Part shown: positions 4,648 through 11,704 of the stretch, piece after piece
Numbering within the stretch: the first letter of the stretch is position 1
Layout of the letters: each line of letters starts with the position of its first letter
Assembly: GCF_015100155.1 (NCBI RefSeq)
Contig: NZ_JACKZA010000021.1
Coordinates: 1 to 37,546 of the forward strand
Direction of reading: 5' to 3'
From: Acidithiobacillus sp. HP-2
GTDB taxonomy: Bacteria > Pseudomonadota > Gammaproteobacteria > Acidithiobacillales > Acidithiobacillaceae
DNA length: 37,546 nucleotides
Program-made: the position numbers and the translations under genes
The notes under the pieces: generated by a model
The model's database searches: none
Told to the model about the DNA's origin: nothing
Seen by the model: the letters and a program-made list of their open reading frames with translations, nothing else

Positions 4648-5463
4648 TTAACCGGCGGCGGCTGTGCTGGCTTTGGATGGCTGTTCCCAAAGTGAGCGCA
4701 GCCTTTTGGTGAATCGTCCCTGGGGATAGTTGGCATGTAATATGGCCGCTGTGGTCCGTGCTTGCTGGTTCAAATTCAAATGCAGATAGGATTTGGTTAA
4801 ATAATAGAGCGCTTCTTGACGAGCCGGGCTGAGTTGATAATCAGTGATGACCCTGCTGCAGCGATTGGCGGAAGCCACATAAGCATCGCGAATATAATAA
4901 AACTTGCAGATATTCAGATTACGCTGGCCGAGAATGTCGATAATTTTGGCAATGTGCAGTCGGGCACTGACTGCGTATGGTGTCTTGGGAAAGGTTTTGG
5001 CCAGATAGGTGAACGTGTTTAATGCTTCATAGTCGGGAGTAGGGGTATATTCCGGACCCTCAATGCCTTCATATTCGGCAAGAGCCTTCAGATAATAAGC
5101 ATAAACAACATGTGGATTTGCGGGATGTGCCTTGATGAAAGCCGAGGCTGCTGCCGCTGCCGCTTTGGAATCGCCAGACCGGTAATAAGCGTAGGCAGTA
5201 TCCAGTTGGGACTGCTCAGAATAGGGGCCGTAGGGATATTCTGTCTGCAAATTTTCAAATTGCCGGATGGCTCGATCGTAATCGCCCCGATGCAGAGCTT
5301 CCTGGGCCGGTCTGAACATTTGCGCAACGGGTGCTACGTGTATGTGCTCGCCCTTTTTATCGGGTGTGCTGGCGCAACCGGACAAAGACAAGGTCATCAG
5401 CGCAGAAATAAAAAGAAATGAAGGTAAGGCGGTTTTGTAAGTACGAATGGTAAGCGGCGGCAT
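4648..5463 (-). CDS. bamD: Outer-membrane assembly lipoprotein BamD
   Basis: A 271-residue lipoprotein of the BAM complex, which inserts beta-barrel proteins into the outer membrane. The signal peptide ends in the lipobox LSLSGC, with the acylated cysteine at about residue 30. Tetratricopeptide-like repeats follow (ALHRGDYDRAIRQFENLQ, then PYSEQSQLDTAYAYYRSGD), matching BamD/YfiO. The ATG at 5463 is chosen because it gives a proper signal sequence; a longer frame to 5508 only adds unrelated residues. BamD is normally 240-280 residues long. The gene is the last in a minus-strand row and lies next to genes of DNA repair and stress rather than its usual neighbours. Confidence 0.9.
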   Translation of the reverse strand: MPPLTIRTYKTALPSFLFISALMTLSLSGCASTPDKKGEHIHVAPVAQMFRPAQEALHRGDYDRAIRQFENLQTEYPYGPYSEQSQLDTAYAYYRSGDSKAAAAAASAFIKAHPANPHVVYAYYLKALAEYEGIEGPEYTPTPDYEALNTFTYLAKTFPKTPYAVSARLHIAKIIDILGQRNLNICKFYYIRDAYVASANRCSRVITDYQLSPARQEALYYLTKSYLHLNLNQQARTTAAILHANYPQGRFTKRLRSLWEQPSKASTAAAG

Positions 5464-5532
5464 CTCTGGTTCACTATTATTCAGGATCAACCAGTATGAC
5501 GCCGACAATCTGCCAGAAGTTCCCCGGCTGCC

Positions 5533-5802
5533 TTAAATGGGTGCAGGCTCTTGGGCAGAAGCGGTTACCGGAACCATGGATTCAGCGGCATCAATGACGC
5601 CACGTTCGGTTTCGAGTACGTCTCCCCTGGCGCGTTCCCGTTCTACCAGATTAATCAGACGCGCTACCTGAGCTGGTTTGACAGCCAGATATTCGGCAAT
5701 GGCCTTCATGTCTTCTTTCAACTGTGCCTGAATGGAATTGATGCCTTCCCGGCGGTTGATGATGTCTTCAATGGCCTCACGGGCCTTGTGATCAAGTTCC
5801 AA
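5533..5802 (-). CDS. Small helical protein of unknown function downstream of the LexA-box gene
   Basis: An 89-residue, highly charged, mostly helical protein beginning MELDHKAREAIEDIINRRE. The start is TTG at 5802, chosen because agagg lies 6 bases upstream; the frame is open much further up, but that part overlaps the neighbouring gene and is not protein-like. Residues about 20-65 look like two long helices with a short turn (EYLAVKPAQVARL). The layout is faintly reminiscent of GapR/DUF2312-type DNA-binding proteins, but I see no firm family match. The gene starts 52 bases after the small membrane protein gene and may share its SOS-type promoter. The C-terminal tail (VPVTASAQEPAPI) is probably disordered. 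Confidence 0.6.
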   Translation of the reverse strand: MELDHKAREAIEDIINRREGINSIQAQLKEDMKAIAEYLAVKPAQVARLINLVERERARGDVLETERGVIDAAESMVPVTASAQEPAPI

Positions 5803-5854
5803 TGTTTTCCTCTGCAAATGGTGGATGGTAGTCGCGCAGCAGTTTAGCACGATC

Positions 5855-6070
5855 TCATATTTGTGGACGCTGATCTTGGGGCATGACGGGATTTTGTGCG
5901 CTGGCCGGTAAATACTGCACTTGCTGGACTGCGACAGTTTCCATAGCTGAACTTGGGCCGGGCTGATAGTGCTTATCCTGATGGCCGAGCCAGACACCGA
6001 TGAATGCCCCGAAGACAATGATTCCCATGGTTTTGGTCCAGAGCTGCAGAGTAGAATGATGCGTAATCAT
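5855..6070 (-). CDS. 71-residue single-pass membrane protein, probably SOS-induced
   Basis: A 71-residue protein with one transmembrane segment (about residues 12-29, TKTMGIIVFGAFIGVWLG) and a roughly 40-residue polar, Gln/Pro-rich tail. No known family is recognised. The ATG at 6070 has a near-ideal ribosome binding site (aaggagg, 6-base spacing), so the longer open frame upstream is rejected. A LexA-type box lies only 21 bases before the start codon. Small membrane proteins under LexA control in other bacteria (for example SidA and DidA in Caulobacter, YneA in Bacillus) block cell division after DNA damage. By analogy only, this could be a division inhibitor or another damage-response peptide. 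It is followed closely by the 89-residue gene. Confidence 0.7.
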   Translation of the reverse strand: MITHHSTLQLWTKTMGIIVFGAFIGVWLGHQDKHYQPGPSSAMETVAVQQVQYLPASAQNPVMPQDQRPQI

Positions 6071-6090
6071 GATAAGCCTCCTTACGGTTA

Positions 6091-6106
6091 CTGTATATAA
6101 ATACAG
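6091..6106 (-). promoter_or_regulatory. LexA (SOS) box
   Basis: The 16-mer ctgtatataaatacag matches the gammaproteobacterial LexA consensus CTGT-N8-ACAG, with both outer half-sites perfect and an AT-alternating core. It lies directly upstream of the ribosome binding site and start of the 71-residue membrane protein gene, where a bound repressor would cover the promoter. No lexA gene is in the window, so the sequence preference of the host LexA is not known from this region. Confidence 0.75.
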
Positions 6107-6176
6107 TAAACCGATAAAAAGGAAAATGCAAGCCTTTCTGATGTCGCCAAGAACAACAGGCGAGGAACAACGGAGC

Positions 6177-6200
6177 AAAAAGCACCCACGGCAACTGCCG
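6177..6200 (-). terminator. Weak terminator-like hairpin after tag
   Basis: Read on the minus strand after the tag stop codon, a short stem (cggca/tgccg, 2-base loop) is followed six bases later by five T residues. The gap between stem and T-run makes it a poor intrinsic terminator. It could separate tag from the LexA-box gene. Confidence 0.3.
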
Positions 6201-6216
6201 TTTTCAGGATTATGGA

Positions 6217-6771
6217 CTACAAACTTTTGAAGCAGTCGGTGCTGTGATCATTGACCATGCCGACAGCTTGCATATAGGCATAGATGATGGTCGGGCCGAC
6301 GAAGCGCATGCCGCGTTTTTTGAGATCTTTGGATAGGGCATCCGATATTTCGTTACGGGCGGGTACTTCAAGCATGCTGCCGGGACGGTTGATCAGGGGT
6401 TGACCATCGACAAATCGCCAGATGTACGCATCAAAAGAGCCAAATTCTTTTTGAATGGTGAGGAAAATACGAGCGTTATCCCGTGCTGCATAGACTTTCA
6501 GGCGATTGCGGATAATTTCCGGGTTGTTTAAAAGCGTTTCCAGCTCTGTGTCCGGAATCCTGGACACCGCTTCAGGGTCAAAGTGGTGAAAAGCCTGACG
6601 ATACGCTGCCCGCTTTTTGAGGATAGTGTACCAATTCAGCCCGGCCTGACTGCCTTCCAGAATGAGCATTTCAAAAAGTTGCCGGTCATCATGGACGGGA
6701 ACACCCCATTCCAGATCGTGATATTGCACATAATCTGCTTTGTCGAGAGGTACCCACGCACAGCGTTGCAT
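6217..6771 (-). CDS. tag: DNA-3-methyladenine glycosylase I
   Basis: A 184-residue protein that removes 3-methyladenine from alkylated DNA, starting base excision repair. It shows the Tag pattern: N-terminal MQRCAWVPLDKADYVQYHDLEWG, then LFEMLILEGSQAGLNWYTIL, and a C-terminal NDHSTDCF. The zinc ligands of Tag are a cysteine near residue 4, a histidine near 17 and the C-terminal H-x3-C, all present. The ATG at 6771 fits the length of E. coli Tag (187 residues) better than the upstream ATG at 6831. Its location next to a LexA-box gene suggests a small DNA-damage cluster, although no LexA box is seen in front of tag itself. Confidence 0.9.
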   Translation of the reverse strand: MQRCAWVPLDKADYVQYHDLEWGVPVHDDRQLFEMLILEGSQAGLNWYTILKKRAAYRQAFHHFDPEAVSRIPDTELETLLNNPEIIRNRLKVYAARDNARIFLTIQKEFGSFDAYIWRFVDGQPLINRPGSMLEVPARNEISDALSKDLKKRGMRFVGPTIIYAYMQAVGMVNDHSTDCFKSL

Positions 6772-6837
6772 ACAAAAATCCGTTCGGTGAGAAACAAACA
6801 GCATCGTCTCCCGCCGAACGGTTCGCGTCAAATACCC

Positions 6838-7926
6838 TTAATGAGCGGCGATTTGTGCGCTTACTTCCGCTTTCTGACCATTGATGTTCAGTACTTGCAA
6901 CTGGTAAGGACCGGAACTGGTGTTGATAAAGCCCGTACTGCTGACTGGCAGATGCAACATGGCTTCTGCCCCCAGACCTGCCTTCAGGCCCAGAATTTTA
7001 TCCGGAGCAATTTGCTGGTAGGCAAAATCATTGTGGATATCTTTGGGATTCAGACGGGAAAGCTGCTTGCCATCCCAGGACTCCACGACTTTGCCATTAT
7101 AATCCAGCAGACGGATGGCAATAATATGCGCCGGTACGGAAGCGGTTCCTGCATCAATATACATATGCACATCCACGCGACCATCGGGCAGAACCCGCAC
7201 ATCGGTCATTTTGACATGGTGGGCCTTCACGCCGGTAGGATCGCCGTGGAAGGGGGTGATCACTGAGCCACGATAGTAAGAATAGGTGGCGACAATGAAA
7301 ATGACCGCAATCCAGAACAGGGTCAGGGCCAGCTTTTTGAAAGCGCCGTCAGACAGGGGCAGGGGTAAGCTGCCTCCCAGCCAGCGAAACCAGCCTTTCT
7401 GGGCCAAAGCCGGATTGCGTTTCATCATCCAGTTGTCAATGGAGTATGCACCACCACCAACGAGGAGCAGGGTGACGCCCATGCCGAAGTTGGATGCCGC
7501 CATGGTCCATTCATCAATACAGGTAGCCCCTTGCCATCCGAACATCAGCATCAGTGAGAAAGAAAGACCCAGGGTTAAAAAAGCCGCGAGGCGGGTCATG
7601 AAGCCGGATAACAACATCAATCCGGAAATGAGTTCAACCGCGCTGAAAATGATGACGCCCGCATACAGCAGGACAAAGTGGTGCAGTAAAAAAGCCACCA
7701 GATGATTCAAGCCAAGAATGGCTCCTGGCATGGCGGTTTGAAACTTGTAAGCCATCCAGTGTCCGGCCGGATTGATTTTTTGGGGGCCATAAATAAAGCG
7801 GCGGGAGCCACCACCCCAGTAAATCCAGCCCTGGACAAAACGCACGGCGAGCATGCCGATGGCCAGTATGCGCCACGCATGTTGCGTGGCTTGATCGGTT
7901 GCTGCAGATTTCATGGTCGTTGCCAT
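6838..7926 (-). CDS. doxDA: Thiosulfate:quinone oxidoreductase, DoxD-DoxA fusion
   Basis: A 362-residue membrane protein. The N-terminal half (about residues 15-170) holds four to five hydrophobic segments with the DoxD pattern (GWIYWGGGSRRFIYGPQK, then GLMLLSGFMTRLAAFLTLGL). Another membrane segment (about 196-215) leads to a periplasmic-type C-terminal domain of about 140 residues matching DoxA. In Acidianus the two are separate subunits; in acidithiobacilli they are fused as here. The enzyme oxidises two thiosulfate to tetrathionate and reduces quinone. The gene follows tetH by 23 bases on the same strand, so the two are almost certainly co-transcribed. No convincing terminator was found after it. 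Confidence 0.9.
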   Translation of the reverse strand: MATTMKSAATDQATQHAWRILAIGMLAVRFVQGWIYWGGGSRRFIYGPQKINPAGHWMAYKFQTAMPGAILGLNHLVAFLLHHFVLLYAGVIIFSAVELISGLMLLSGFMTRLAAFLTLGLSFSLMLMFGWQGATCIDEWTMAASNFGMGVTLLLVGGGAYSIDNWMMKRNPALAQKGWFRWLGGSLPLPLSDGAFKKLALTLFWIAVIFIVATYSYYRGSVITPFHGDPTGVKAHHVKMTDVRVLPDGRVDVHMYIDAGTASVPAHIIAIRLLDYNGKVVESWDGKQLSRLNPKDIHNDFAYQQIAPDKILGLKAGLGAEAMLHLPVSSTGFINTSSGPYQLQVLNINGQKAEVSAQIAAH

Positions 7927-7949
7927 TCTGAACCCCTGTTAAGCCTTAT

Positions 7950-9464
7950 TTAAGCCTTGTTGGCGTTGAATTGCGGATTGACGTCCTTGACCGGTACGGC
8001 ATTGATCCAGTCCCACGAGTTCCCCAGGTACATGGTGCCCCCGACAATGGTGGGATTCACGATGCCAAAGCGACCTCCGACATGATATTCGTGAACCATC
8101 TGACCGGTTTTAGGCTGAATGGCATAAATATCCGGTCCGGTAGAAATATAGAGCATATTTTCATAGTACGTCGGTGCACCGCGTCCTGCTCCGGCAGGAC
8201 CAGGATTGGGTACGTGCCAGGTCCACGCCACTTTACCGGTATGCAGATTCATGGCCTCATAGGTCGAGGTGACAGGAGAACCGACATAAACCATCCCATC
8301 ATGAATCATGGGAACCCCGCCCTTGAAGGCCGGAATCTTGGGGCCACGTCCCATATTGTTTGTCCACAGAACTTGTCCGGTATTGGCGTTAAAAGCCCTA
8401 ACCAGGGTTTCCATGGTGGGTTTGCCATCCACCATTTTGGGATTGGCCACGGTATCCATGACGACAATGCCATTATCCACAACGGGGGATACATCGCCCA
8501 TGCCGGTATTGACGGCACCGGGAATTTCACCCTTCCACAACACTTTGCCGTTATTGACATTCAGTGCATAAAGACCGGGGATGACGGACATGGAGACGTA
8601 AACGTGGTTTTTCCAGACTACGGGGCTGGACATGTTGGCTATGCCCCCTACATGGGTTTTCCAGATGGCCTTTCCATCTGTGGAGTGAATCCGGTAAATA
8701 TTGCCGTCGCCGGTGCTGATGAAAAGCGAGTGGTCCGCATAGGCCGGGGTGGGCATGGCATCACCCTGGGTCTTGAAACTCCAGAGCAGCTTGCCGTCCT
8801 GACGATCCAGGCAGAAAATCCCGTTGTAACTGATATCCTTGCCGCGCCCGGCCTGCCTGGGATGCTTGGAATACTCCATGACATTGGCAAAATTGAAAGA
8901 CACACTCCCCGCAGATAGATAGACCTTTTTGCCGACGACCAGAGGGTTACCCATGAGGGTGTTGGCTACTGGACTGCTCCGCCATATCAGCTTGCCAGTT
9001 TGGGCATTGACGGCGTAAGCGAACATATCATCGCTTTCCGCATACACGACCCCTTTGACCACCGAAACGCCCAGGGCATTTCCGTAAAACTGGGTTTGTA
9101 CCGGGAGCGCTTCCTTGATGCCATCCACTTTTTCGCCGTAGGGATGGTTATCATCGAGCGGCCAGGCCCGGGCTTCAGGGAAATTCCAGCGGACGCCATC
9201 ACGAATCCAACGGGGCGCGTTGTGCGCAACCGGGAATCCGGCATTGTGCTGAGGGTTTCCATAGGCGTGGGTCCACGCTGAAGGACCGACCTGATCATTT
9301 GCCTGAGGCGCATTTTGCGGTAAATATAGCGTCGCAAAGGGACTTTGGGGGTCCAGGGTATTGTTAATGGGATCCTGGGGAACCTGATTGGTCTGCGCCC
9401 AGGCGGTCCCGGAAATCAGGATGCTGACTGCTGATAATATGACTATCTTGCGGAATTTCATCAC
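7950..9464 (-). CDS. tetH: Tetrathionate hydrolase (PQQ-like beta-propeller)
   Basis: A 504-residue exported protein. The signal peptide ends in AWA at about residue 23. The mature part carries repeated blades of the pyrroloquinoline-quinone-like propeller family (QTGKLIWRSSPVANT, QDGKLLWSFKTQGD, NNGKVLWKGEIPG, NTGQVLWTNNMGRG, HTGKVAWTWHVPN). Length and sequence style match tetrathionate hydrolases of Acidithiobacillus, which cleave tetrathionate to thiosulfate, sulfur and sulfate at low pH in the periplasm or outer membrane. Two ATG codons in tandem (9464 and 9461) follow aggag. A PQQ-dependent dehydrogenase is the alternative, but coupling to doxDA and the size favour TetH. Cofactor residues were not checked one by one. 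Confidence 0.92.
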   Translation of the reverse strand: MMKFRKIVILSAVSILISGTAWAQTNQVPQDPINNTLDPQSPFATLYLPQNAPQANDQVGPSAWTHAYGNPQHNAGFPVAHNAPRWIRDGVRWNFPEARAWPLDDNHPYGEKVDGIKEALPVQTQFYGNALGVSVVKGVVYAESDDMFAYAVNAQTGKLIWRSSPVANTLMGNPLVVGKKVYLSAGSVSFNFANVMEYSKHPRQAGRGKDISYNGIFCLDRQDGKLLWSFKTQGDAMPTPAYADHSLFISTGDGNIYRIHSTDGKAIWKTHVGGIANMSSPVVWKNHVYVSMSVIPGLYALNVNNGKVLWKGEIPGAVNTGMGDVSPVVDNGIVVMDTVANPKMVDGKPTMETLVRAFNANTGQVLWTNNMGRGPKIPAFKGGVPMIHDGMVYVGSPVTSTYEAMNLHTGKVAWTWHVPNPGPAGAGRGAPTYYENMLYISTGPDIYAIQPKTGQMVHEYHVGGRFGIVNPTIVGGTMYLGNSWDWINAVPVKDVNPQFNANKA

Positions 9465-9524
9465 TGCTCCTCACGTATCGAAAATGTGGAAAAACCTCGT
9501 TGTAAATGCACTCATGAGGCGTGC

Positions 9525-9562
9525 TGAATAATTAGAAAATTCTAATTTGTTAATGAATAATT
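9525..9562 (-). promoter_or_regulatory. AT-rich repeat cluster upstream of tetH
   Basis: A perfect inverted repeat (aattagaa, 9530-9537; ttctaatt, 9540-9547) is flanked by two direct copies of tgaataatt at 9525-9533 and 9554-9562. It lies 60-100 bases before the tetH start codon. The symmetry suggests a protein binding site. In A. caldus and A. thiooxidans tetH is controlled by two-component regulators, but the sites described there do not obviously match. Confidence 0.4.
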
Positions 9563-9614
9563 CAGTATCATCATGGAGTTACTGAACCATAAACCTCTCG
9601 CTATAAGATATCAA
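9561..9614 (-). promoter_or_regulatory. Candidate tetH promoter with overlapping operator
   Basis: On the minus strand, TTGATA (9614-9609) and TATGGT (9591-9586) are spaced by 17 bases and would start transcription about 115 bases before tetH. A perfect 7-bp inverted repeat, ttcagta (9561-9567) and tactgaa (9580-9586), overlaps the -10 element and the expected start. The rest of this gene-free stretch, up to the htpG terminator near 9741, is AT-rich with no other supported feature. Confidence 0.35.
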
Positions 9615-9740
9615 TAATATAACTGTAAAAAATTGAAACATGGTTACATATGATTACACTTGGTATCTTAAAAATAATTTCAACTATGGTGTTTTTTGTG
9701 AATTAAAAGAAAAGGTATTATTTTGAAGAAAATATGCAAA

Positions 9741-9778
9741 TAAAAAAGCATCACCTTCTGTGGGTTAGAAGGTGATGC
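9741..9778 (-). terminator. Intrinsic terminator of htpG
   Basis: A perfect 12-bp stem (gcatcaccttct, 9748-9759; agaaggtgatgc, 9767-9778) with a 7-base loop is followed on the minus strand by six T residues (9747-9742). It lies 34 bases after the htpG stop and should isolate htpG from tetH. Confidence 0.9.
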
Positions 9779-9811
9779 CATGACCGTTGAACAAAAGGGT
9801 CAGTGGGTTTA

Positions 9812-11704
9812 TCAGCCTGCCAGGGCGAGCATTAACTGGTTGAGACGGGCCACAAAACCAGCAGGATCCTCCAGTTGTCCGCCCTCGCTCAAAATCGCCT
9901 GATCCAGTAACAGCGATGACCACTCCGCAAAGCGTGACGCATCTTTTTCACTTTCTATGCGGGTCAACATAGGATGGGTAGGGTTGATTTCCAGGGTGGG
10001 TTTGGTACTGGGTACTTCGTGTCCAGCCTGCTTCAATAATTGCTGCATATACAGGGCCATGTCCCGTTCGCCCAGGACCATGCAAGCAGGAGAACTGGTC
10101 AGCCGGTGGGAAACCCGAACCGCTTCAACCCGATCACCCAGCGCATTTTTGATACGCTCCACCAGACCTTCTGCGGTTTTTTCGATTTCTTCCTGAGATT
10201 TGCGTTCTTCTTCAGTTTCAATGCTACCCAGATCAAGCGTGCCTTTGGCTACAGAGCTCAGGGCCTTGCCTTCAAATTCATGGAGGTGGCTGGTCAGCCA
10301 TTCATCCACACGGTCGCTGAGCAGCAATACTTCAATGCCCTTTTTACGCAGCAGTTCCAGTTGTGGACTGTTTTTGGCAGCAATAAAAGTATCCGCAGTA
10401 ATGTAATATATTTTGTCCTGACCTTCGCGCATACGGCCCATATAATCAGCCAGAGAAACATTCTGGGTTTCAGTATCGGAATGGGTGCTCGCAAAACGTA
10501 ATAATTTCGCGATTTGTTCGCGATTGGCAAAATCTTCACCAGGACCTTCTTTCAGTGCCCGTCCAAACTCATTCCAGAAGTTTTGATATTTTTCGGGTTC
10601 TTTTTCAGCCATTTCTTCCAAAAGGCCCAGTACCCGTTTGATGGAGCCCGAGCGCATCTGGTCAATGACCCGGTTGCCCTGAAGAATTTCGCGGGAAACA
10701 TTCAGGGGGAGATCGCTGGAATCCATGACGCCGCGTACAAAGCGCAAATAACGGGGCAGAATCTGGTGTTCGGTATCGTCCATGATGAAAACGCGCTGCA
10801 CGTAAAGCTTGATGCCGTGCGTCTGATTGGGTTCCCAAAGATCAAAAGGTGCCTTGCCGGGAATGTAGAGCAGAGAAGTATATTCGAGGCGACCTTCCAC
10901 CCGGTTATGCGCCCAGGCCAGTGGATCAGCATAATCATGGCTGACGTACTGATAAAATTCCTTGTATTCTGCATCACTGATTTCAGACTTGGAACGTTGC
11001 CAAAGAGCAGAGGCTTTATTGACGGTCTCCCAGCTATCGCCGGGCTTGCCATCTTCGCCCGCTTTACGCATCAGAATGGGTAGGGGAATATGGTCTGAGT
11101 ATTTGTTGATAATGCCGCGCAAGCGCCAGAGATTCAGAAGGTCCTGGCGTTCATCTTCGCGTATGTGCAGCACTATCTCGGTACCGCGCTCTGGCAAATC
11201 GATGGTTTCGAGGGTGTAGGCGCCCGTCCCATCGGACTCCCAGCGTACACCATGCTCTACTTCCATTCCGGCTCGACGGGTACTCAGCTTTACGCGGTCG
11301 GCGACAATAAAGGCAGAATAAAAACCTACGCCAAATTGACCAATCAGTTTGGCATCCTTGCTCTGATCGCCACTCAGTCTCTCAAAAAATTCTTTGGTTC
11401 CCGACTTGGCAATGGTTCCAATGTTGGCAATGACTTCGTCGCGGTTCATGCCGATACCATTGTCGCGGACAGTTAATGTGCCTTGTTCGGCATCAAAATC
11501 TACCTGCACTTTGAGTTCGCTGTCCCCCGCAACCAGACTGGGATCCGCCAAGGCTTCAAAGCGCAGTTTGTCACAGGCATCAGAGGCATTGGATATCAGT
11601 TCACGCAGAAAAATTTCTTTGTTTGAATACAGAGAATGAATCATCAGATGCATCAGCTGATTGATTTCAGTCTGAAATTTTAGAGTTTCCTTGTTGGTGG
11701 TCAT
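9812..11704 (-). CDS. htpG: Chaperone HtpG (Hsp90)
   Basis: A 630-residue ATP-dependent chaperone, the usual HtpG length. The N-terminal GHKL ATPase domain shows [20 protein letters not shown], the ATP-binding DNGIGM and the lid/glycine motif [12 protein letters not shown]. The middle domain has the conserved [11 protein letters not shown], and the C-terminal dimerisation domain ends near [10 protein letters not shown]. It assists folding of client proteins in the cytoplasm under heat and other stress. The start ATG has a strong ggaaggag site. It is a single-gene unit: a heat-shock-type promoter lies upstream and an intrinsic terminator downstream. Confidence 0.97.

Follow-up and report, generated by a model that had tools for sequence, protein, structure and literature searches.

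A LexA box ahead of two small genes in Acidithiobacillus sp. HP-2: a putative SOS operon and its relatives

Two small genes behind a LexA box

The stretch of DNA analyzed here, referred to as the window, comprises 37,546 nucleotides (nt) of contig NZ_JACKZA010000021.1 from Acidithiobacillus sp. HP-2. On its minus strand, a LexA box precedes two small genes, which we call gene 1 and gene 2. An earlier note, made from the sequence letters, had pointed to a near-ideal LexA site before a strong ribosome binding site, a 71-residue membrane protein gene and, 52 bases on, a gene for an 89-residue helical protein. All of these are present: the forward strand reads ctgtatataaatacag at 6091-6106, a strong Shine-Dalgarno sequence (taaggagg) lies between the box and the gene 1 ATG, and the two open reading frames (ORFs) occupy 5855-6070 and 5533-5802. 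Our best explanation overall, held tentatively, is a LexA-repressed two-gene SOS operon in which gene 1 would encode a checkpoint-like membrane protein and gene 2 a DNA-binding protein. The principal features are as follows.

6091-6106, minus strand: LexA box, read as CTGTATTTATATACAG on this strand; its extended form, TACTGTATTTATATACAGTA, spans 6089-6108, and its first base lies 36 nt ahead of the gene 1 ATG (6070)
6126-6131, minus strand: -35-like element TTGCAT, an inferred promoter part, 17 nt ahead of TACTGT
5855-6070, minus strand: gene 1, a predicted single-pass membrane protein of 71 amino acids (aa), with a hydrophobic stretch at about residues 14-30, a conserved WLGHQ...YQP at the end of the stretch and a predicted disordered tail
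5533-5802, minus strand: gene 2, an 89-aa all-helical protein with a TTG start and a GAGG ribosome site; its family gives a weak T4 DsbA-like profile signal

The strict form of the box, CTGTATNNNNATACAG, has exactly two copies in the 3.2-Mb window genome, namely this site and one at lexA, where it begins 47 nt before the lexA match. This is the sequence arrangement of an E. coli-type LexA regulon, with a CTGT-N8-ACAG palindrome before gene 1 and the same motif recurring at lexA. The loose pattern CTGTN8ACAG alone proves little, because it has 26 genomic sites vs. 17 for a control pattern and, at up to one mismatch, its count within the window is at shuffle level (8 found vs. 9.4 expected, i.e., no enrichment). 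What distinguishes the gene 1 box is its perfect extended palindrome together with the conservation of that sequence. CTGTN8ACAG is perfect in 14 of the 15 gene 1 loci that we identified, and the remaining one, from a draft genome with a truncated gene 1, has a single mismatch. In eight representatives chosen from these loci, the commonest base of a column is shared on average by 7.4 of 8 sequences across the box and two flanking bases, compared to 4.65 upstream and 4.84 downstream; the perfect boxes have unlike flanks and lie in at least three genomic neighborhoods. Three one-mismatch copies of the strict box occur in the window genome, none ahead of a gene start (two within ORFs and one, C23:890, between convergent ORF ends). 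With as many as two mismatches allowed, the count rises to 90 vs. 43 for the control; few of these sites were inspected, and weaker LexA sites are therefore possible.

The box probably covers the -10 region of the inferred promoter, since a conserved CTTG, kept at the -35-like place in all eight representatives, begins the TTGCAT found 17 nt before TACTGT. A consensus scan did not pick this element; its one pick, at 6097-6069 over the box and start codon, is no more than chance would give. The LexA control proposed in the earlier note is strongly supported by the conservation of the box and by the presence of the same box at lexA, and on this sequence evidence we consider it very likely that LexA binds here and that gene 1 is SOS-induced.

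Conservation of both genes and the operon question

Conservation among relatives, the first check that the earlier note had suggested and one whose failure would have counted against its reading, holds for gene as well as box: gene 1 is present in 15 of 17 Acidithiobacillus genomes (0 of 12 genomes from three other sampled genera). The description of its product as belonging to no recognized family also stands, with no Pfam match above cut-off and no NCBIfam match. Identity to the window copy ranges from 50 to 97%. The ratio of nonsynonymous to synonymous substitution rates (dN/dS) is below 1 in all nine gene 1 pairs with finite dS (0.10-0.76) and is 0.05-0.24 in six such pairs for gene 2; one of the 10 gene 1 pairs and one of the seven gene 2 pairs were saturated in dS and gave no ratio. 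By this measure, both genes are under purifying selection.

The hydropathy maximum of gene 1 falls at residues 14-30. Its predicted model has a helix at residues 3-33, with a predicted local distance difference test score (pLDDT) of 83-85 over residues 11-30, followed by a disordered tail; the whole-model mean pLDDT is 60.5. In an alignment of 14 of the 15 copies (A3, which omits the truncated G012 copy), invariant columns concentrate within and right after the helix and include W27, L28, G29, H30, Q31, Y35, Q36, and P37. A coincidental palindrome ahead of an ORF that is no gene is an extremely improbable explanation. The general frequency of loose CTGTN8ACAG matches is the sole point in favor of that explanation, which is contradicted by conservation in 15 genomes, by dN/dS below 1 in every usable pair, and by the sharing of the box with lexA.

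Of the 15 gene 1 loci, 14 have gene 2 downstream, in differing neighborhoods; genome G002 has gene 1 without gene 2. The gap between the genes is 52 nt in the window and its close relatives (L001 and L002), and the five intact copies that were measured have gaps of 52-62 nt. The box accompanies gene 1 in all neighborhoods (14 besides the window), and the cassette is found in at least three genomic neighborhoods. Alternatively, gene 1 alone could be SOS-controlled, with gene 2 a neighbor that has its own promoter and encodes a constitutive nucleoid protein. A motif at the gap, TGNTAAACTGC (window 5803-5857), is common to different clades and is a possible internal promoter of gene 2; gene 2 is also more conserved than gene 1 (85-99% identity to the window copy among syntenic copies vs. 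50-97%), and 16 loci of gene 2 homologs elsewhere (L036-L051) have no perfect CTGTN8ACAG up to 700 nt upstream. Set against these points are the recurrence of gene 2 behind gene 1 despite the different neighborhoods and the steadiness of the gap. We judge separate control of gene 2 to be a serious minority view, yet on the unlikely side, and retain a shared SOS operon as the preferred reading.

On the minus strand, the order is tag, a terminator-like hairpin, the LexA box, gene 1, the 52-nt gap, gene 2, and a bamD-type lipoprotein gene. The surrounding features are as follows.

6217-6831, minus strand: tag (3-methyladenine glycosylase gene), upstream of the LexA box
6188-6201, minus strand: terminator-like hairpin between tag and the box, a consensus match that is weak (1 found vs. 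0.6 expected in shuffles)
4648-5508, minus strand: bamD-type lipoprotein gene, downstream of gene 2

The tag, DoxDA-like, and PQQ-repeat context of the window is kept in G001, G015, G016, G009, and G010. Two neighborhoods without tag that were read by eye differ from each other, one (L088) having LysR-, MFS-, and lon-like genes and the other (L084) a cytochrome b561-like gene. A functional tie to tag was considered and rejected: tag adjoins in just five of the 14 neighborhoods (L090, L091, L095, L096, L097), and the other nine gave no tag match within the stretch examined, some stretches being short and two having been read by eye.

Wider searches placed both window genes solely in the window genome among a class sample of 369 genomes. 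Gene 2 was found neither in phages and plasmids (tblastn) nor in viral contigs (profile search); the gene 1 profile, and that of the umuDC-linked relatives described below, likewise found nothing in viral contigs.

A box-led small-protein family and a lean LexA regulon

The pattern CTRTATNNNNATAYAG has 40 sites in the 29 family genomes, compared to 4 for a control pattern. All except one were assigned: 19 precede lexA, 11 precede gene 1, and nine precede a gene 1-like small ORF. The exception (G023:C22; L139, contig 22 of G023, 46.0 kb) is not linked to lexA, umuDC, or a gene of the small-protein family. Some lexA boxes are hybrids such as CTGTATAAAAATATAG and suggest that a CTAT half-site is accepted by LexA.

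This second kind of box-led small ORF begins about 40 nt downstream of where the box starts. Its intact members are 77-88 aa long and carry WLG[HR](Q/P)SxxY behind a hydrophobic stretch. Both umuD and umuC lie downstream in six of the nine strict-box loci (L106, L131-L134, L138); within 3.3 kb of each, L107 has a umuD match and no umuC match, and L108 has neither. At a tenth locus, L105, the box is off-pattern and umuD-umuC follow. SRAP, an SOS-associated peptidase gene, lies just upstream of the small ORF in L107, L108, L131-L134, and L138. The annotated order on A. caldus plasmid mpAca1.1 is SRAP, a hypothetical protein (WP_040131357.1), umuD, and a Y-family polymerase. In all, umuDC operons opened by such a box-led gene were seen at L105, L106, L131-L134, L138, and L203, one of them plasmid-borne.

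Profile comparison of the gene 1 set with the umuDC-linked set (A4) gave P 8.5e-6 and a probability of 83% over just 26 columns, with a transmembrane (TM) segment followed by WLGHxxxxY as the common motif. Members of A4 were selected for lying behind a box and for a motif recognized by eye, and the alignment omits the decayed L109 copy (9 of 10). The motif WLG[HRN]x4Y occurs 19 distinct times in 814 kb of family DNA, always within box-led small ORFs; this sequence overlaps itself and was gathered around such matches, so that the result shows specificity and is no unbiased count. Gene 1 and the umuDC-linked ORFs share a LexA-type box starting 36-41 nt before the ATG, a hydrophobic stretch, and WLG[HR]x4Y at the end of that stretch, the features by which we propose to define a WLGH family. 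Judged by these sequence features, gene 1 is part of a larger family of box-led small proteins, some of whose members open umuDC operons. Gene 1 is the constant element by the same evidence, as it also stands without gene 2 and its cousins head umuD-umuC operons.

Boxes in the umuDC-linked set vary. An AT-substituted palindrome, TACTATATAAATATATAGTA, replaces the canonical LexA box at L106, L107, and L109 (1460-1479 of the gene's strand), as it does at L108 with TG for TA at the start; the hybrid TACTGTATAAATATATAGTA, found at L133 and L134, differs from it by one base. The palindrome could be a variant site for LexA or could serve a different repressor as its operator. Locus L109 (G000 contig 33, 46.8 kb) holds a decayed umuDC-linked small ORF and retains its palindromic box.

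As a single query, the 84-aa umuDC-linked protein found five places in three of the 29 family genomes and none in plasmids; the other members were found via the box pattern. The L132 cousin matched six plasmid records, with A. caldus at 1e-13; the five others (E 0.07-0.7) were taken as chance. At E up to 0.05, the umuDC-linked profile matched 28 of 398 genomes in a phylum sample, among them the window genome. We checked 19 loci from the other matched genomes: 18 lack the motif, L166 carries it but has neither a box nor an open small ORF, and the strict box is absent from all 19.

The umuDC-linked cousins suggest another role, in which the small protein is a damage-tolerance accessory that anchors or regulates Pol V (UmuD'2C), or the gene 2 protein in the chromosomal operon, at the membrane during SOS. 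Relatives are indeed the first gene of box-small ORF-umuD-umuC operons at seven loci (L105, L106, L131, L132, L133, L134, L138), most of them with SRAP upstream as listed above. In contrast, none of the 14 gene 1 neighborhoods examined has a umuD or umuC match, the gene 1 of G002 lacks gene 2 as well, and L107 and L108 lack matches to one or both umu partners within 3.3 kb. We regard this accessory role as quite unlikely, and keep the checkpoint-like reading of gene 1 ahead of it.

As all but one of the 40 strict sites belong to lexA and WLGH genes, the LexA regulon, as far as its strong sites go, looks very small, and these sequences suggest that this part consists mainly of lexA and one membrane protein, with weaker sites possible. 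Close to recA, 24 loci (L173-L196) showed no LexA box when scanned from about 465 nt upstream to the early codons, allowing up to one mismatch to CTGTN8ACAG or up to four to the strict pattern; recA is present in 27 of the 29 genomes, and three fragments were left out. Three loci (L182, L186, L189) have a poor box match about 450 nt upstream, and a box farther up in a recA operon is possible. Across the window genome, SulA (PF03846) gave no match with E at or below 0.001, nor does gene 1 match it at E up to 1. PF03846 matches occur in 16 of the 29 family genomes; the one that was scanned further (L136, directly after lexA) is ImuA by NCBIfam. In that genome, G003, lexA is followed by imuA (NF033429) and then by a gene with a weak Y-family polymerase match (L136 3684-5753). 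The lexA locus of the window genome (L100) has no such imuA after lexA.

A broader and more speculative proposal, which we hold to be unlikely as a whole, is that the WLGH small membrane protein is a general, portable SOS effector. It would always stand first behind the box, paired with either Pol V (umuDC) or a phage-DsbA/GapR-like DNA-binding protein, and would tie the damaged chromosome or mutasome to the membrane within a reduced LexA regulon, whose strong boxes lie at lexA and WLGH genes, with none found near recA.

Gene 2, proposed function and comparison with known systems

Like gene 1, gene 2 has no Pfam family above cut-off and no NCBIfam match. Its relatives, some of them broken, occur in 17 of the 29 genomes and in all four sampled genera; the alignment used (A1) holds 22 of the 34 match rows, the others being near-duplicates, broken copies, or matches that lack a locus. 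In five of 14 non-syntenic loci (L037, L042, L044, L045, L047), these 14 being drawn from 20 non-syntenic match rows, the paralog adjoins a topA-like gene or is separated from it by a single ORF. In L098, a larger view of L045, the full-length topA-like gene passes the TIGR01051 cut-off. There (6800-9928; G000 contig 33), DnaC-like and lytic transglycosylase-like genes surround the paralog and the topA-like gene.

Profile searches connect the gene 2 family, weakly, to phage DNA-binding proteins. Twelve of the 22 members match phrog_639, the T4 DsbA family, at E up to 0.1 (best 5.1e-6; T4 DsbA itself matches at 2.1e-40), and two match PF11126 weakly (best E 0.037). T4 DsbA, a protein of about 10 kDa, has a low affinity for the AT-rich late-promoter DNA to which it binds (PMC2988020). 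The predicted gene 2 model (mean pLDDT 79) has helices at residues 2-41, 43-59, and 62-76, one long and two short, an order that agrees with that of GapR, whose monomer has one long N-terminal and two shorter helices (PMC6853979). VIA-align returned five chains (best Z 3.7); GapR and DsbA are absent among the Foldseek and VIA-align matches of gene 2, an absence that does not rule either out. When solved structures were searched with the gene 2 profile, 14 matches fell within E 10 (best 0.011, none at 0.001); these were taken as coincidental helical matches. PADLOC gave weak matches to gene 2 (E 0.025 and 0.027) and none to the small proteins. The main text of a survey of nucleoid proteins in Acidithiobacillia does not mention GapR or DsbA (PMC10561277). 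From the sequence comparisons, we put a double-stranded DNA-binding protein of the T4 DsbA or GapR type at only a little short of an even chance.

The proposed mechanism would run as follows. Upon DNA damage, LexA would leave the promoter-covering box, as its conservation leads us to infer. Gene 1 would then yield a small inner-membrane protein with one N-terminal membrane helix, WLGHQxxxYQP at the helix end, and a disordered, probably periplasmic tail. Working like SosA or SidA, this product would contact a membrane division protein and thereby keep septal wall synthesis on hold until repair ends, while gene 2 would supply a three-helix, probably double-stranded DNA-binding protein that coats or services overtwisted or stalled DNA. 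Small size, a LexA box, and a single N-terminal membrane helix, the marks of SosA/SidA/YneA-type inhibitors, are all seen in gene 1, the helix as a prediction. By analogy of architecture (cf. SosA, PMC6851548), and with no SulA match in the window genome, a checkpoint role is plausible; that gene 1 is such an SOS-induced division-checkpoint protein is our leading suggestion, still somewhat less than even.

Small single-TM SOS proteins also include DinQ (PMC3567139) and TisB (PMC11575346), and gene 1 might be a membrane-active peptide of this sort that lowers membrane potential and leads to dormancy. Full-length members, however, have 71-88 aa with a conserved motif at the helix end and a long tail, unlike a short peptide, and a depolarizing peptide would presumably cost much at very low pH. 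We consider this improbable, and return to the checkpoint-like operon.

Several results weigh against that explanation. Gene 1 was not found in two genomes of the genus, G006 (rated 100% complete) and G011 (rated 81%), and its membrane topology comes from hydropathy and the predicted model alone. Pfam and NCBIfam searches found no homology of gene 1 to known division inhibitors, SosA, SidA, and YneA not having been compared directly, and the umuDC-linked cousins are as suggestive of mutagenesis as of division. Besides the shortness of the alignment that joins the two sets, the gene 1 profile matches the single L105 protein more weakly (P 8.5e-4). Gene 2 may have its own promoter, judging by the motif at the gap. 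The window copy of gene 2 alone matches phrog_639 just at E 0.1, and the gene 2 profile compares weakly with 12 T4-type DsbA proteins (hhalign, P 0.0013, probability 18%) and not at all with T4 DsbA alone (P 0.12). None of the 22 members matches GapR PF10073 at E 0.1, a search in which HMMER filters can miss remote relatives and no GapR sequence was aligned. Foldseek found nothing significant for the gene 2 model (two matches in PDB, best E 7.9; 18 among viral models, best E 1.8).

The analysis goes beyond the earlier note in the wider gene 1 family heading umuDC operons, the gene 2 paralogs elsewhere, and the weak T4 DsbA signal of the gene 2 family. SOS-induced small membrane proteins are a known kind. 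In the open-licence PMC literature, mostly judged from listings, we found no account of the WLGH family, its motif, its two alternative operon partners, or the lean regulon, nor, among titles and abstract starts, a study of the Acidithiobacillus LexA regulon. The SOS response of acidophilic sulfur and iron oxidizers seems little studied; mitomycin C treatment of A. ferrooxidans has been published (PMC6370655). These organisms thus gain a testable damage-response effector, and a small-protein family is defined by a motif and linked to operons of mutagenic polymerases, with at least one such operon plasmid-borne. The strong-site part of a LexA regulon may shrink mainly to lexA and one membrane protein, and a membrane-tethering effector, if true, would be a type of SOS module not described before.

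Among known systems, T4 DsbA (phrog_639, PF11126) resembles gene 2 in having 89 aa and in profile matches over most of the length of some family members; it differs in that E-values are weak and that gene 2, a bacterial gene behind a LexA box, has no late-transcription partner. GapR (PF10073) shares one long and two short helices, and some gene 2 paralogs have topoisomerase neighbors; unlike a GapR, gene 2 has no Pfam match at E 0.1 and did not return GapR in Foldseek, no GapR sequence having been compared.

For gene 1, the closest likeness of plan is SosA, the Staphylococcus SOS division inhibitor, which has 77 aa, a TM segment at residues 10-30, and, close to the membrane, an extracellular segment that is conserved and required to inhibit division (PMC6851548). 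Both have one N-terminal TM segment, conservation just after it, and SOS induction (inferred for gene 1); no homology is claimed, as family searches, made without direct comparison, show no sequence relation and the gene 1 host is Gram-negative. SidA and DidA of Caulobacter, YneA, DivS, and ChiZ are likewise small, DNA-damage-induced single-pass membrane proteins (PMC6851548), but no family in common with gene 1 was found, and gene 1 has no LysM model match in Pfam. The small ORF of A. caldus mpAca1.1 (WP_040131357.1) has umuD-umuC in place of gene 2 and is plasmid-borne, and some other umuDC-linked members have AT-substituted boxes (CTATAT....ATATAG). It shares with gene 1 a LexA-type box, an ATG about 40 nt after the box start, and a TM segment followed by WLGHQSxxY.
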